Positions 3,898-27,875 of a stretch of DNA of 38,341 nucleotides are shown here, piece after piece (the first letter of the stretch is position 1; every line of letters begins with the position of its first letter). Below the pieces are notes generated by a model. The model ran no database searches. It saw only the letters and a list, made by a program, of their open reading frames with translations, and had not been told where the DNA came from. Source of the stretch: an uncultured Candidatus Melainabacteria bacterium. Lineage in GTDB: Bacteria; Cyanobacteriota; Vampirovibrionia; Gastranaerophilales; Gastranaerophilaceae. Made by a program: the position numbers and the translations under genes. The stretch lies in NCBI GenBank assembly GCA_949741915.1, contig CATJOM010000085.1, positions 1 to 38,341 of the forward strand. Reading direction: 5' to 3'.

Positions 3898-5361
3898 ATG
3901 GCAAAAATAATCAAAATTGAAGGCAATACTGTCTTTATAGGCACCGATGATTGGAAATTATTAGAAATCAACAAGAATGATTGCGTTTTTGAACCTGTTT
4001 TTGGAGCCGAAGTTGAAGTATATTCAAACGAAACAAAAACAATAGTTATTAAAAAAGAATCGCCTAAGTTATTAGTGCCTGCAGAAAATAATAATATAAT
4101 TGAAATCAAGAAAGATGTTATAGACAGACCTATTCTTTATTACGGCATATCAGAAAATATGAAAAAAAACTTTAGCAAATATGTCGAAATAACAGGCGAG
4201 CCAAAACTTATAATCGAACAAGATGATAATCTGAAAGATTTTCCAGAAAAACGCCTGTTTGATAAATACGACATTGTTTCATTGGATGAAGCACTAGAAT
4301 GCCATCCTGATGCAGTGATTTGGGTTACATATCTTTATGCAAACAATACGGCAAAAAGACTGCTAAAAAGAATTGAACCTGAAAGGATAAAATTTTTAAA
4401 AGCTGATTTAGAATACAGAAAAGGCTGCAGTTTTCTGGGCCACTTCATTGATTATCGTGTAGATAATTTTTCACCTTGTTGTGTATCTGGTAACTCCCAA
4501 GTTAAAACAAGCGGAACAATTGCCGAAAGAATGGCTCATTGGGAAAGGCATATTAGACAGCTTATAGATGATATAAAAAACGGAAGGCCAACCAAATGCG
4601 ATAACTGCAGATATCTTAAAGAAGGCTTTTGGCCCAAAAAAGTATGGCTTGATTACATATGCTTTGCAACAAATCATCCTGGCGATGTTTGTAATTTAAG
4701 ATGCAGTTATTGTTTTGTGGAAAAACGCTTCAAAGACCTTAATAGCGGCGATAAAGAGGGCTACACAACATATGAAACAATACAACAGCTTTCCCAAATG
4801 CCCGAGTATAATCGTCCAGATGTTTGCATTGAATTATCAAATGGAGAATTTTGCGCAAATAAAGATTGTGATGAAATTTTTGATGTTTTATTTAAAACTA
4901 AATGGAAAGTCAGATTTGTCACCAACATGACAATATATAAAGAAAAATTTGCCGAATTTTTAAAGACAGGAAGGACCACTAATGTTCTGACTTCTCTTGA
5001 CGCAGGTACGCCAGAAACATACAAAGCCATCAAAAAAGTTGATTGTTTTAACAAAGTAATAGAAAACATGAAAAGATATCCCCTCCAAGATGTTGATTTC
5101 AAGTTAAAATATATTTTCTTGGATGGGGTAAATGACAACGAAACTGATGTTGACGGGTTTTATAATATTGTAAAAGATGTCGGATGTAAAACAATATTTA
5201 TTTCAAGCGACAGATGTAAACCATTTACTGAAAAAATTAGAGAATTAGTAGTCAGACTTATCAAAAAAGCAAAACAAGACGGTATACGTATAGCAAAAAG
5301 CAGTTATATAGCATCACAAGACGATATTTTTATTGACAATATCATAAATGATGTCGAATAA
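3898..5361 (+). CDS. Radical SAM protein with an N-terminal Cys-rich extension
   Basis: 487 aa. The radical SAM core begins late: CNLRCSYC holds the CxxxCxxC [4Fe-4S] ligands C265, C269, C272. Before it lie about 75 residues of an N-terminal beta-like segment, then a region (80-165) alternating hydrophobic strands and helices like a nucleotide-binding fold, then a Cys cluster: C177, C194-C195 and a CDNC pair at C234/C237. Such a set resembles auxiliary-cluster (SPASM-like) ligands, but here it precedes the core. ELSNGE and TNMT fit core strands; residues 320-420 complete the barrel. Substrate unknown; peptide or sugar modification are options. An ATG at 3886 is in frame, but GGAGA (3888-3892) overlaps it and sits correctly for the ATG at 3898, so I chose 3898. 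It is divergent from a methyltransferase. Confidence 0.75.
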   Translation: MAKIIKIEGNTVFIGTDDWKLLEINKNDCVFEPVFGAEVEVYSNETKTIVIKKESPKLLVPAENNNIIEIKKDVIDRPILYYGISENMKKNFSKYVEITGEPKLIIEQDDNLKDFPEKRLFDKYDIVSLDEALECHPDAVIWVTYLYANNTAKRLLKRIEPERIKFLKADLEYRKGCSFLGHFIDYRVDNFSPCCVSGNSQVKTSGTIAERMAHWERHIRQLIDDIKNGRPTKCDNCRYLKEGFWPKKVWLDYICFATNHPGDVCNLRCSYCFVEKRFKDLNSGDKEGYTTYETIQQLSQMPEYNRPDVCIELSNGEFCANKDCDEIFDVLFKTKWKVRFVTNMTIYKEKFAEFLKTGRTTNVLTSLDAGTPETYKAIKKVDCFNKVIENMKRYPLQDVDFKLKYIFLDGVNDNETDVDGFYNIVKDVGCKTIFISSDRCKPFTEKIRELVVRLIKKAKQDGIRIAKSSYIASQDDIFIDNIINDVE

Positions 5362-22285: not shown

Positions 22286-22988
22286 CTTTAGTTTTTGTTT
22301 CCTTTCTGGTGAGGCTAATTAAAAATTCCTTTATTGATAATATGTCTTTGGGCTTAAATGCAGCAATTTCAGCGTCAACTTTCTCATCATCCCCTAAATC
22401 TTCTTCATTATTAAAACCAAAAATATTTAATATTCTATAAACTTTTTTTGTAAATTTTTTAAAACTTTCCGAGAGTTTTTTTTGAATAAAATTCTTAATT
22501 TCTCCAAAAATACTAACTAATTTTTCAGCTGCATTATAAACTTCTCTTTGAATATTTTGTATGAATTTGCCTGCATGTTTCATGAATTCTGGAAGATTTT
22601 TAATAATATTTAATAGCGGCCTTAAAATATTTCCCATTGACGCATTAAATAAAGCAGCAAACGATTTTGGAAGGCTACTTTCAATCCTGTTTAGAATATT
22701 TAGAAGTTTATCTGCAGCGTTCTGCATCATTTTTTGGGTATTTTGGATAAATGCAGCCTGTCTTTGATTATCAGCTTTCATTTCAAGCTTATCTCTGTCT
22801 GCCGCCTTCATTCGCATCCATATCGCATAACACTGTGCATAGGACATCTCATTCTTCTTTGGTGGATCTGCTTTTTTGACACTGCCACCTCCACCACCCA
22901 TTCCATTGCAAACAGGACAAGCCCCAAAGGGAAGCCCATGGGGACAGGTTTTAACATTATTCGTTGTTACCGGGCTAATTGATGCCAT
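22263..22988 (-). CDS. Unknown protein with CPHG-CPxC zinc-ribbon-like head (first gene of the riboswitch locus)
   Basis: 241 aa. The head, KTCPHGLPFGACPVCNGMGGGGG, has C15, H17, C24 and C27 spaced like a small metal-binding or zinc-ribbon knuckle followed by a Gly linker. Residues 50-190 are long amphipathic helices (MQNAADKLLNILNRIESSLP, FIQNIQREVYNAAEKLVSIFGEI) without a clear signal peptide. The C-terminus is acidic then basic. Family unknown. AGG 9 nt before the ATG. It is the first gene after the cobalamin-riboswitch-like leader (about 45 nt downstream), so the element most likely controls it and the two following genes. Confidence 0.7.
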   Translation of the reverse strand: MASISPVTTNNVKTCPHGLPFGACPVCNGMGGGGGSVKKADPPKKNEMSYAQCYAIWMRMKAADRDKLEMKADNQRQAAFIQNTQKMMQNAADKLLNILNRIESSLPKSFAALFNASMGNILRPLLNIIKNLPEFMKHAGKFIQNIQREVYNAAEKLVSIFGEIKNFIQKKLSESFKKFTKKVYRILNIFGFNNEEDLGDDEKVDAEIAAFKPKDILSIKEFLISLTRKETKTKDDNIQDE

Positions 22989-23033
22989 TAAAAAACCTGC
23001 TCATATTTTCTTTTGATAAAAATTCAAAACAAA

Positions 23034-23152
23034 AGCCGCAGCAGATAAACTAATTAATTTCCGGAATTTCCGCGGATAATTAATCAATAAGTTTTCCGAC
23101 TTTAACGGCTGCGGCCCAGTTAAGGATTTTCACCTTATTTCCTCGTGTTATT
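23034..23152 (-). ncRNA. Cobalamin-riboswitch-like leader (compact, AdoCbl-variant-like)
   Basis: The minus strand contains the conserved cobalamin core: GAGGAAATAAGG, then GGTGAAAATCC (plus 23124-23134), then AACTGGGCCGCAGCCGTTA, then GTCGG. P3-type stem TAAGG/CCTTA (plus 23133-23137 with 23121-23125). P5-type stem AACTGG/CCGTT (plus 23116-23121 with 23104-23108) with loop GCCGCAG. That loop is perfectly complementary to CTGCGGC further down (plus 23035-23041), as expected for the L5-L13 kissing contact. AATAA/TTATT (plus 23148-23152 and 23086-23090) may close the core. A hairpin ATTAATT..TCCG/CGGA..AATTAAT lies between. The predicted transcript start leaves almost no 5' peripheral arm, so it is a compact form. 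FMN-type sequence (CCGGCGGTA) is absent. Confidence 0.72.
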
Positions 23153-23157
23153 TAGTC

Positions 23158-23186
23158 TTTATACCATAGAGAATATAGCCCGTCAA
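23158..23186 (-). promoter_or_regulatory. Promoter of the riboswitch-led locus
   Basis: On the minus strand TTGACG (plus 23181-23186) and TATAAA (plus 23158-23163) are separated by exactly 17 nt. The start of transcription would fall near 23151, just before the riboswitch-like core. Confidence 0.75.
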
Positions 23187-23330: not shown

Positions 23331-24770
23331 GTGAAACATACAGGAATAATAATTGCAATATTTTGCCTTTTATCAATACCACCTTCCTTTGGAATAGAAA
23401 CAATTCACAAAGGAGATATTCTCAGCCTTGAAGAATGCATAGATATAGCGATTCAGAACAACCCGAATGTTGAAATCTCAAAAAATAATGTTAAGCTCAT
23501 TGAAAGCAGGGTGGGGCAAGCAAAATCAGACTACTTTCCAAGCATTGGACTCAATAGCGGATATACTGGTGACAATTCACTACATAATTCCGGATATTCA
23601 AACAGCCACAATTATTACTACACTGCTGGTATCAGCCTTAAGCAGCTTATCTTTAACTTTGGAAAGACAAATGCCTCGATTAAAATGCAAAAATTCAACA
23701 AAATTTCATCTGAATTTGATTTAGATTACACAATTCTAAGAACAGCTTATGATGTAAAAAATGCTTACTATGGCGTACTCGCAGCAAGGGCAAAGATTGA
23801 TATAGCAGAGTCAAACCGAGAAATAAACAAAAGACAGTACGCACAGATAAAGGCATATTTTGAGGAAGGAATAAAATCCCGCATAGATTTTGTAAATGCA
23901 GAAGTCAATTTAAGCAATTCAGAGATTGAGCTCATAAACGCCCAGACAGAGTATGAAAACATGCTGGTAAAACTAAATAATGCAATGTATGTAGCATATG
24001 CACCTGAGTATTCTATAAAAAATACTGAAACATTTAATTTGGCAGAAAACTGGACAGATATTAAATTCCTAAACATTGGAAATTACAAAAAGCTTGAAGA
24101 GGAGATTAATGCAGAAGATACAGAGCCTCTCAATTATACAACTTCAACACTAACTTCCAAAATAGAAAAAAGTGACATTTTGGAAGATTATGTATTTAAG
24201 CCACTAGAAATCTCCTTTGAAGAGGCCCTTGAAAAGGCTAAAGAAAATAGGCCCGATTTAAAATCATACCTTGCAACAAAGGATGCTATGGCAGAATCAT
24301 TAAAATACGCACAAAGAGAATATTTTCCACAAATTACGGCAAATGCAGGCTATACTTGGAGAAATTCTGATGCACCATACACAAGCAGCCTAAGCTACGG
24401 TGCAGGCCTAGATATAACTTCAGTTAATCCTATGAGAACAAAATATAAAATTAACGAAGCTAAAACACAGCTTGATATTGCGATAGAAAACATAAACCTG
24501 ATTGAAAAAAATATATTTTTTGAGGTGCAGGATGCGTTTATAAATCTGACACAGTTTGAAAAACAAATACCCTTATACAAAAAACGAGTTTATCAGGCAC
24601 TTGAAAACTTTGAACTTGCAGACGGCAGATACGGCATAGGCTTGGCCAATTTTATTGAACTGCAGGATGCAAGAAGCAAATACTTAAACTCTCAACAGGA
24701 GTACATTCAAACCATATATAACTATAATATTGCAAGGGCTAATTTAGAAGTTGCAATGGGGGAAAGATGA
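23331..24770 (+). CDS. TolC-family outer-membrane efflux protein
   Basis: 479 aa. Signal peptide 1-21. Two OEP repeats: the first around LSLEECIDIAIQNNPNVEISKNN, the second around ISFEEALEKAKENRPDLKSYLATKD, each with long coiled coils and a strand such as YFPSIGLNSGYTG or YFPQITANAGYTW. The protein ends with the typical NYNIARANLEVAMGE. It would form the outer-membrane exit duct for the export complex encoded next. Length is normal (about 450-480). The start is GTG, with ACGGAG about 13 nt upstream, a rather long spacing. The 3' end overlaps the next ATG (ATGA), showing coupled translation. Confidence 0.92.
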   Translation: MKHTGIIIAIFCLLSIPPSFGIETIHKGDILSLEECIDIAIQNNPNVEISKNNVKLIESRVGQAKSDYFPSIGLNSGYTGDNSLHNSGYSNSHNYYYTAGISLKQLIFNFGKTNASIKMQKFNKISSEFDLDYTILRTAYDVKNAYYGVLAARAKIDIAESNREINKRQYAQIKAYFEEGIKSRIDFVNAEVNLSNSEIELINAQTEYENMLVKLNNAMYVAYAPEYSIKNTETFNLAENWTDIKFLNIGNYKKLEEEINAEDTEPLNYTTSTLTSKIEKSDILEDYVFKPLEISFEEALEKAKENRPDLKSYLATKDAMAESLKYAQREYFPQITANAGYTWRNSDAPYTSSLSYGAGLDITSVNPMRTKYKINEAKTQLDIAIENINLIEKNIFFEVQDAFINLTQFEKQIPLYKKRVYQALENFELADGRYGIGLANFIELQDARSKYLNSQQEYIQTIYNYNIARANLEVAMGER

Positions 24771-25936
24771 AAAGAAAAATAGCAATAATAACACTAGCTT
24801 GTTTGGCGCTCTTAGCCTTTGGTGGCTTTTTATTTAAAAACAAAAAACAGGCTAAAACCTATATAACAGAACCGCTTCAAAAAAGAACAATAACACAAAT
24901 TGTTGAAGCCTCTGGCACCATAAATCCTGTCCAGACAGTCAGCATAGGCTCACAGGTATCAGGCCAAATAAGCGCAATCTATGTTGATTACAATTCAGAG
25001 GTTAAAAAAGGCCAGCTTCTTGCGGAAATTGATACATCCCTTTTTGAAGCACAGGTAAACCAGGCAAAAGCAAGTATAGACAATGCAAGGGCAAATCTTG
25101 CAAAAATTCAGGCAACAGCAGCCAATGACAAACTAACCCTAAATAGATATAAGAACTTATACAAAAAAGGCTTTATTGCAAAGAGCGAATTAGACCTCGC
25201 TGAAAGCACTTATTCAGCAGATGTTGCACAAATAAGAGCCGCTCAAGCACAGATAAACCAAGCTCTCGCATCTTATTCAACAGCGGAATCCAATTTAAGA
25301 TACACAAAAATAACATCCCCTGTTGATGGCGTTGTTATTTCACGCGCTGTTGATGTAGGACAGACTGTTGCTGCAAGCTTTCAGACACCTGAGTTATTCT
25401 CTGTAGCACAAGATCTAACCCAGATGCAGATTGAAGCAAGCGTTTCAGAGGCCGATATAGGAAAGGTAAAAAAGCATCAAAACGTGGAATACACACTGGA
25501 CGGTTATCCCGATGAAACATTCACGGGAAAAGTAAGCCAAGTAAGGATTTCGCCTACAACAGTATCTAATGTTGTAACCTATAGTGTAATTATAGATGTA
25601 AACAATGACGATTTAAAACTTATACCAGGCATGACAGCCAATGTTTCAATAATTACCTCAAAAAAAGAAGATATTTTATGTGCCCAGAATGCAGCACTAA
25701 AATTCACTCCAAACACAGATGGAAAAGGTGAAAAATACGAAAAACAGGGGATATGGCTTTTGTCTGAAGGGGTGCCAAAAAGGGTTGAAATTCAAACAGG
25801 CGTCAGTGATGATTCATACACAGAAATTATTTCAGACAAATTACATGATGGAGACAATGCCATAATATCAATAGAAGAAAAAGGCAAAGGAAAAGATGCA
25901 AATAAAGGCAGAAAAATGCCTCCAAGGATGTTTTAA
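24767..25936 (+). CDS. MacA-like periplasmic adaptor (HlyD family)
   Basis: 389 aa. One N-terminal membrane anchor (IAIITLACLALLAFGGFLF). Lipoyl halves flank a coiled-coil hairpin: VEASGTINPVQTVSIGSQVSGQI and ITSPVDGVVISRAVDVGQTV, with KKGQLLAEIDTSLFEAQVNQ leading into the hairpin and YKKGFIAKSELDLAE in it. Beta-barrel and membrane-proximal domains follow (NVEYTLDGYPDETFTGKV, LIPGMTANVSI). It joins the TolC-like duct to the ABC transporter. The tail is basic (GRKMPPRMF). It overlaps both neighbours, TolC by ATGA and the ATPase by TAATG. Confidence 0.92.
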   Translation: MKRKIAIITLACLALLAFGGFLFKNKKQAKTYITEPLQKRTITQIVEASGTINPVQTVSIGSQVSGQISAIYVDYNSEVKKGQLLAEIDTSLFEAQVNQAKASIDNARANLAKIQATAANDKLTLNRYKNLYKKGFIAKSELDLAESTYSADVAQIRAAQAQINQALASYSTAESNLRYTKITSPVDGVVISRAVDVGQTVAASFQTPELFSVAQDLTQMQIEASVSEADIGKVKKHQNVEYTLDGYPDETFTGKVSQVRISPTTVSNVVTYSVIIDVNNDDLKLIPGMTANVSIITSKKEDILCAQNAALKFTPNTDGKGEKYEKQGIWLLSEGVPKRVEIQTGVSDDSYTEIISDKLHDGDNAIISIEEKGKGKDANKGRKMPPRMF

Positions 25937-26649
25937 TGGCACTAATTGAAGTAAAAAATATAGTAAAAACATATACTATGGGCAATGAAACCTTCTATGC
26001 CCTCAAAGGGGTTTCTCTTCAAATAGACAGCGGCGAATTTGTTGCAATAATGGGCGCATCTGGTTCTGGCAAGTCAACGTTTATGAATATTATAGGCTGC
26101 CTCGATAAGCCCGTTTCGGGTGATTATTTCTTAGATGGCAAAAACATTGTGGATACCAAATTAGACAAACTTTCGGAGGTCAGAAATGCAAAACTGGGAT
26201 TTGTCTTCCAAGGTTTTAATCTAATTTCAAGAACATCAGCTCTTGAAAACGTAGAATTGCCAATGATTTACAATGGAATACCAGCAAAAGAAAGAACCGA
26301 GAGAGCAATGGAAGCTTTGAAAATAGTAGGATTAACAGGCAAAGAACATAATATGCCAAATCAGCTATCTGGCGGCCAGCAGCAAAGAGTAGCAATAGCT
26401 AGAGCAATCGTGAATGACGCACCTGTTATACTTGCAGATGAACCTACGGGAAACCTTGATACCAAAACAAGTTACGAAGTTATGGATTTCTTTGTAAATC
26501 TGAATGAACAAATGAAAAAAACCATAGCATTAGTTACCCACGAAGATGATATAGCAAGTTATTGCAAGAGAATAGTAAGATTTAAGGATGGAAATATAAT
26601 AAAAGACACCCAAAATAATCCCATCAAAGGAGGAAGTACGGCAGTATGA
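25936..26649 (+). CDS. ABC transporter ATPase (MacB/LolD type)
   Basis: 237 aa, with all motifs: Walker [10 protein letters not shown] (from 40), Q-loop FQGFN, signature LSGGQ (144-148), Walker B VILADEP (164-170) followed by TGNLD, and the switch His in LVTHE. It belongs to the MacB/LolD/FtsE group. In enterobacterial MacB the ATPase and permease are fused; here they are two genes. The start overlaps the stop of the adaptor gene (TAATG), and the end overlaps the permease start (ATGA). Confidence 0.95.
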
Positions 26650-27875
26650 TTGATTTTTTATCAACATTTAAAATGGCAACCGTTTCTCTAAGAGTTAATA
26701 AAATGCGCTCAATTTTAACTAGTCTTGGCATTATAATTGGTGCAAGTGCAGTAATTATTATGCTCGCAGTGGGACAGGGTGCTAGTGTTAAAATTCAAAA
26801 AGATATGGCCTCAATGGGCAGTAATCTTTTAATGATATCATCAGCATCAGTTACATCTGGCGGGGTGCGAATGGGAAGAGGCACAAAGCCAAGTCTCACA
26901 ATGAAAGATGCCCTAGCTATAGAAAAAAACTGCCCGTCAGTAGGCTATATAGCCCCATACTCAAGCGAAGCAAAGCAGGTAACATATGGAAACCAAAACT
27001 GGTCCACCAGTATAGCAGGCACCACGCCAGAATACATGAAAATAAGAGATTGGAAAATTAATCTCGGCAGAAACTTATCTTCTGAAGATATTTCAAACAT
27101 GTCAAAAGTTGCAATCATTGGAAATACCGTAGCAAACGAACTTTTTGGTGATTTAGACCCCATCGGAAGAACTGTTCGCATAGGCGGAGTGCCCTTTAAG
27201 GTGATAGGTCTTCTTGAAAGCAAGGGCCAAAATTCTATGGGGCATGACCAGGATGATTTTATAATAATACCAATTACAACAGGGCAAAAGAAAGTTTTTG
27301 GAACAAATTTCCCTGGCACAGTAAATATGATAAATGTCAAAGCTAAAAATTCTGATTCAATATATTCTGCAGAAGAAGAAATAACCGAATTATTAAAAAA
27401 GCGACACAGAATAGGCAAAAAACAGGAAAACGATTTTCAGGTAAGAAACTTAACCCAAATGATGGAAACAATGAAAAATACCGTTAAAACAATGTCATTA
27501 TTATTAGGATCAATCGCTGGAGTATCTCTGCTTGTCGGAGGAATAGGCATTATGAACATTATGCTTGTTTCAGTGACAGAAAGAACAAAAGAAATAGGCA
27601 TTAGAATGGCAATCGGCGCAAAATCATCTGATATTAGAATACAATTTTTAATAGAAAGTCTACTGTTATCCTTCATTGGCGGTATACTTGGCTTAATAGC
27701 GGGTGTTACCGGCGCAAAATTAATCGAATTTTTTGGCTCTATGACAGTATATATCAGCAGCTTCTCAATAATATTATCCCTAGGCTTCTCGGGCCTTATT
27801 GGTGTTATATTTGGCTATTATCCGGCATACAAAGCCTCCCTTCTAAACCCGATTGACGCACTAAGGTATGAATAG
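26646..27875 (+). CDS. MacB-like ABC permease
   Basis: 409 aa. MacB_PCD/FtsX layout: first membrane helix at about 21-42 (ILTSLGIIIGASAVIIMLAVG), a large extracytoplasmic domain (45-280), then three membrane helices (about 283-310, 330-355, 370-395). The segment GIGIMNIMLVSVTERTKEIGIRMAIGA is the MacB signature. The end, NPIDALRYE, is the usual C-terminal motif. It is the last gene of the four-gene export operon. The substrate may be a macrolide, peptide or glycolipid, which cannot be told from sequence. Confidence 0.93.
   Translation: MIDFLSTFKMATVSLRVNKMRSILTSLGIIIGASAVIIMLAVGQGASVKIQKDMASMGSNLLMISSASVTSGGVRMGRGTKPSLTMKDALAIEKNCPSVGYIAPYSSEAKQVTYGNQNWSTSIAGTTPEYMKIRDWKINLGRNLSSEDISNMSKVAIIGNTVANELFGDLDPIGRTVRIGGVPFKVIGLLESKGQNSMGHDQDDFIIIPITTGQKKVFGTNFPGTVNMINVKAKNSDSIYSAEEEITELLKKRHRIGKKQENDFQVRNLTQMMETMKNTVKTMSLLLGSIAGVSLLVGGIGIMNIMLVSVTERTKEIGIRMAIGAKSSDIRIQFLIESLLLSFIGGILGLIAGVTGAKLIEFFGSMTVYISSFSIILSLGFSGLIGVIFGYYPAYKASLLNPIDALRYE

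Follow-up and report, generated by a model that had tools for sequence, protein, structure and literature searches.

An AdoCbl-II riboswitch before an order-wide operon of three orphan protein families in the Gastranaerophilales

The regulons known to be governed by cobalamin riboswitches fall into four classes, i.e. B12 synthesis, transport of B12 or its precursors, cobalt transport and isozymes (PMC3766115). The described family closest to the element reported here is AdoCbl-II (Rfam RF01689, clan CL00101), which has in common with it the conserved core, the short P6 and the L5-L13 kissing contact, and which sits before B12-repressed genes; class I (RF00174) has a larger aptamer. What distinguishes our locus from the described AdoCbl-II switches is its target operon, whose three genes (c0, c1 and c2) belong to families not known from B12 regulons. 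Within the window, by which we mean the whole stretch of 38,341 nucleotides under analysis, the riboswitch adds a member to a known class, and the novelty lies in what it controls: three orphan families whose operon extends across an order, is found in B12 users without the supply routes tested, is near-universal and B12-controlled, and by sequence fits none of the four regulon classes. Should this operon import or capture B12, a gap in the pathway would be closed for a group with few cultured members, by a mode of vitamin uptake not described before; otherwise it would serve a process so far undescribed that is switched on when B12 runs out. In the open literature, to which our search was confined (subscription papers being outside its scope), we found no description of the switch-c0-c1-c2 operon and no paper treating riboswitches together with the Gastranaerophilales (class Vampirovibrionia, phylum Cyanobacteriota), the order to which the host probably belongs.

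The aptamer and its promoter

Positions 23159-23081 of the minus strand match the RF01689 covariance model over its full span (model positions 1-81) with 38.6 bits, compared with a gathering score of 36.5, and an E value of 7.5e-6. An earlier note, made from the letters of the DNA, had proposed a cobalamin riboswitch in this leader, and the Rfam result bears the proposal out: the quoted core motifs (GGTGAAAATCC, AACTGGGCCGCAGCCGTTA and GTCGG) are all present on the minus strand, and the description of the leader as compact and lacking 5' arms is correct and agrees with the 81-position AdoCbl-II model. The Rfam scan of the window lists no other cobalamin family at 23159-23081; class I is not the best family at the locus and the RF01689 match was kept, while a permissive scan covering 16 kb around it yields no second cobalamin element. 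The aptamer is preceded by a sigma-70-like promoter on the same strand (23186-23158, by direct reading), in which the two boxes claimed in that note, TTGACG at 23186-23181 and TATAAA at 23163-23158, are indeed separated by 17 nucleotides. This pair escaped the consensus promoter scanner, which requires the -10 box to end in T; many of the orthologous leaders are likewise preceded by a comparable TTGAC box and a TA-rich -10 element.

The window score is only 2 bits over the gathering score, which could be taken to mean that the match is a chance one or a decayed remnant, uninformative on the operon. We regard this as extremely improbable, considering that orthologous leaders reach up to 54 bits, covary and stay before c0 in several families, and that another family carries a class I switch instead. 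In fact, among 38 AdoCbl-II aptamers located before c0 orthologues, helices P3-P6 are conserved, with 86% of the pair cells holding standard pairs as compared with 25-48% in slid controls, and both-sided changes are found in 10 of the 16 aptamer pairs. The covariation score of the aptamer is 0.337, against 0.181 in shuffles, and none of 500 shuffles reaches it. B12 control of the operon, as a prediction, is strongly supported.

The kissing contact and the expression platform

The P5-L5 hairpin (CTG-GGCCG-CAG, 23119-23109, minus strand) is defined by sequence, folds and covariation, and contributes to a segment, GCCGCAGC at 23115-23108, which can also pair, as an alternative, with the switching strand described below. 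Downstream, a P13 stem-loop occupies 23083-23050 of the minus strand, its stem appearing in the leader fold and its loop L13 (CGGAAATTC, 23072-23064) being placed by the covariation between L5 and L13. In the window leader the contact is short, as CGG of L13 (23072-23070) can kiss CCG of L5 (23114-23112) with only three Watson-Crick pairs. A CCG:CGG kissing contact of 3 bp is supported by mutation in the P. megaterium metE riboswitch, and bulged contacts have similar support among other cobalamin riboswitches (PMC10653944). Across the leaders, L5 pairs better with the segment at the offset of L13 than it does after random reassignment of L5 between leaders (none of 5000 permutations reaches the observed value), and the matched variants comprise GCCG with CGnGC (one bulged base), GGGACG with CGTTCCC, GTGTCG with CGACAC and TGCG with CGCA.

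The earlier note had assigned the role of L13 to another segment, CTGCGGC at 23041-23035, on account of its complementarity to GCCGCAG. The complementarity is present, and even extends to an exact match of 8 nucleotides (GCTGCGGC with GCCGCAGC), for which the probability by chance is 0.17 against the whole aptamer, which is unremarkable, and 0.005 against the L5/P5 stretch. The kissing role does not hold: in other leaders L13 is found about 20-35 nucleotides past the core, and the candidate was rejected since it lies outside this position and overlaps the strand that is complementary to the Shine-Dalgarno sequence. The segment at 23072-23064, around 30 nucleotides closer to the aptamer, is the likelier L13.

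The rejected segment is part of a switching strand, CTGCTGCGGC (23044-23035, minus strand), which has two mutually exclusive partners. Its portion GCTGCGGC (23042-23035) can form eight pairs with L5/P5, and CTGCT (23044-23040) can pair with the Shine-Dalgarno strand GAGCAGG (23002-22996), which is followed by a run of six T (22995-22990) and by the ATG start codon at 22988; the element at 23002-22989 would thus form the 3' arm of an OFF hairpin, according to sequence and folds. The minimum-energy fold of the ligand-free leader places the switching strand with L5/P5, and the fold of the platform alone places it with the Shine-Dalgarno strand. Both pairings are kept with changed bases in a same-genus leader (CTGCC:GGCAG and CTGCGG:CCGCAG). 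Where a T-run precedes the start codon (24 leaders), the upstream complement of the Shine-Dalgarno strand is longer than in shuffles (Wilcoxon P 1.7e-6), and in many other leaders an anti-Shine-Dalgarno TCCTCT or TCCTTAC can pair either with the Shine-Dalgarno strand or with an identical aptamer AGAGGA or GTAAGGA. Many AdoCbl-II relatives use a P3 strand as the partner of the switching strand, whereas in the genus of the window this role falls to L5/P5.

Alternative pairing of an anti-Shine-Dalgarno strand with the aptamer or with the Shine-Dalgarno sequence is the usual layout of a B12-OFF switch, and since the strand at this locus pairs with either L5/P5 or the Shine-Dalgarno sequence we assign it to such an expression platform; that the switch acts with the OFF sign in the cell is what we infer. 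Transcription would start from the sigma-70-type promoter and the leader would fold as an AdoCbl-II riboswitch. When B12 is absent, 23042-23035 would pair with L5/P5, leaving the Shine-Dalgarno sequence free and c0-c1-c2 expressed; when B12 is bound, L5 would kiss L13 and the released switching strand would capture the Shine-Dalgarno sequence in a hairpin before U6, which would block translation and may also end transcription. The OFF-switch model therefore predicts that the operon is on when B12 is scarce.

The operon in relatives and its proteins

By computation, RF01689 is present in 52 of 59 relatives, and homologues of c0 and c1 are found in 47 and 45 of them, respectively. The order switch-c0-c1-c2 is kept in about 40 genomes belonging to nearly as many genera; it is near-universal in the family of the host and absent from every distant relative sampled. 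When the phylum is sampled more widely, c1 occurs in nearly all genomes of the family and has no full-length match outside the order. A cobalamin riboswitch, usually AdoCbl-II, precedes c0 in 45 of the 47 relatives having this gene, the two without a model match being G040 and G053. By eye, the leader of G040 (L128, around 4572-4680) is AdoCbl-II-like with an insertion in P4, is missed by the Rfam model and is possibly a variant aptamer.

Class I switches, which differ in aptamer size, resemble the window switch in standing before the orthologous operon in one family, f3, where it is mostly preceded by RF00174 (G037, G043, G047, G052, G055, G056 and G057; 38.7-51.6 bits). At these loci (L131, L132, L183, L184, L185, L187 and L188) the riboswitch class has changed before one and the same operon.

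All three genes lie on the minus strand. The first, c0 (P0001, 22988-22263), encodes 241 residues with an invariant CPHG...CPxC, a near-invariant C53, a glycine-rich linker and amphipathic or coiled-coil helices. It is followed by c1 (P0002, 22285-20576), a protein of 569 residues with 3-4 transmembrane segments, in which a module of 82 residues is tandemly duplicated (E 2e-12), and by c2 (P0003, 20548-20027), of 173 residues, which from its sequence and a low-confidence model is soluble and all-helical. The earlier description of these products as a CPHG-CPxC protein, a membrane protein and a helical protein is therefore accurate. Its further claim, of an undescribed B12-controlled envelope system, stands as regards the cobalamin switch and the fact that the families are not described as B12 genes; the term envelope is not borne out, as transmembrane segments are consistent in c1 only and are missing from c0 and c2 in most members.

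Single-protein and profile searches gave no curated Pfam or NCBIfam match and no convincing PDB relative for c0, c1 or c2, the weak matches obtained being helical noise in both kinds of search, and no relatives of these proteins were found in viral contigs. The AlphaFold2 model of c1 (pLDDT 40) is unusable; that of c2 (pLDDT 59) finds designed armadillo repeats as its best fold matches (E 0.05), which were not relied on given the weak score and the low confidence of the model; c2 is perhaps ARM/HEAT-like. With models of this quality, no structural similarity of c0-c2 points to transport. Concerning metal binding by c0 and the topology of the proteins, we infer that c0 would be a coiled-coil protein associated with the membrane and probably carrying a metal site, c1 the inner-membrane part and c2 a helical scaffold.

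B12 supply and the possible role of the operon

The genome of the host encodes an AdoCbl-dependent NrdJ (on contig C68), as do most relatives. The supply routes tested were CbiC, FecCD, TonB plug and EcfT, and the host genome holds none of them: no FecCD/BtuC (PF01032), no TonB plug/BtuB (PF07715), no CbiC and no CbiQ/EcfT. Within the family, EcfT (CbiQ family, PF02361) is found in none of 36 genomes, that of the host included.

Among the 59 relatives, all six NrdJ-positive genomes lacking the operon have CbiC or FecCD, which is the case for only 4 of the 41 having it (Fisher P 2e-5, with phylogeny ignored and some genomes incomplete). When the genomes without CbiC or FecCD are considered, 37 have the operon and NrdJ, five the operon only, none NrdJ only and four neither (P 8e-4, again ignoring phylogeny). 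In this counting, the FecCD matches of G036, G047 and G054, being weak (21-28 bits), did not count as BtuC, and weak TIGR02504 matches in two genomes were not taken as NrdJ, in G010 because an adjacent NrdB-like gene suggests class I and in G022 because the score is only 24.7 bits.

This phyletic pattern points to acquisition or handling of B12, which is more specific than an envelope function. Together with the regulation, it leads us to read c0-c1-c2 as an operon that is repressed by B12 and serves to acquire or handle it when scarce, with a probability of roughly 0.5. The process would be a lineage-specific acquisition of cobalamin, by import, capture or retention, in a B12 user without the de novo pathway or any of the known importers tested. 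Being order-wide with its switch, in B12 users mostly without the tested synthesis and import routes, the operon provides the best candidate genes for this role. A bolder version, that it constitutes a new means of acquiring cobalamin, without relation to BtuBCDF or ECF importers, which replaces synthesis and known import and is near-universal in this order of non-photosynthetic cyanobacterial relatives, is a tentative proposal that falls short of even odds. Compared with BtuB-BtuCDF import, which is riboswitch-controlled in G019, G041, G042, G044 and G046, the c0-c2 operon is without TonB-dependent receptor, FecCD permease, ABC ATPase and binding protein, and no TonB plug or FecCD Pfam match lies within the three proteins. 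Neither beta-barrel, signal peptide nor ATPase was recognised in the operon, which leaves the outer-membrane route and the energy source unaccounted for. Five genomes that have the operon but neither NrdJ nor an alternative supply also count against acquisition. Furthermore, c1 cannot be the sole importer, as it is absent from two genomes, G026 and G031, in which NrdJ, c0 and two copies of c2 are present and Btu and Cbi genes are not.

In these two genomes (L123, L124) c1 has been lost and c2 duplicated, and the switch and c0 remain, which suggests c0 and c2 as the core of the operon.

Elsewhere in the order AdoCbl-II sites precede nrdD-nrdG, metE, btuB-btuCDF and a CbiM-like cobalt-transport gene, as named from their sequences. 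The nrdDG, metE, btu and cobalt-transport genes are classic B12-repressed targets. A second AdoCbl-II switch of the host genome lies before nrdD-nrdG (L134 4184-4264, i.e. G000:C59:18183-18263). Two btuB-btuC-btuD-btuF-like operons, at L179 3457-8201 (G001) and L180 2221-7016 (G013), have no cobalamin riboswitch ahead and may therefore serve another substrate.

The control of the isozyme nrdDG by the other switch of the host makes it conceivable that c0-c1-c2 is likewise part of a B12-sparing or shortage programme and not of uptake, with B12 entering by a route beyond those tested, e.g. through a BtuM-type solo S component or through an ABC importer of the SbmA/BacA type. The dispensability of c1 in G026 and G031 and the soluble c0 and c2, devoid of transporter features, fit such a programme. 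The NrdDG and MetE isozymes share with our operon the riboswitch class, the presumed OFF logic and the taxonomic order, but c0-c2 resemble no enzyme family: against Pfam and NCBIfam they have no recognisable enzyme domain, which a B12-independent isozyme would have. Moreover, what replaces the operon across genomes is synthesis or import genes and not another isozyme. On balance we consider a shortage programme rather unlikely, and nevertheless a serious rival, owing to the losses of c1, the missing outer-membrane and energy parts, the five genomes having both operon and FecCD, and the existence of importers outside the tested set.

The amphipathic and coiled-coil helices of c0, with weak SseC-like and tape-measure-like matches, and the genes flanking the locus in the genus of the host (prepilin-like on one side, a MacAB-TolC-like export set on the other) would be compatible with a surface, secretion or cell-contact structure built under B12 starvation, for example one taking cobamides from neighbours, acquisition being then indirect. 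We find this improbable, as matches of this kind are typical noise from helical, low-complexity sequence, conservation of the flanking genes stops at the genus and the operon has no secretion machinery.

As for these neighbours, a divergent set at 23331-27875 (plus strand of the window) encodes a TolC-like outer-membrane protein, an HlyD/MacA-like adaptor, an ABC ATPase and a MacB-like permease, and adjoins the operon only in the genus of the host. Just downstream of c2, at 19911-19498 (minus strand), a small protein combines a type IV prepilin N-terminus with a phage tail collar domain, and a similar gene occupies the equivalent place in a same-genus relative (L033 8035-8496).
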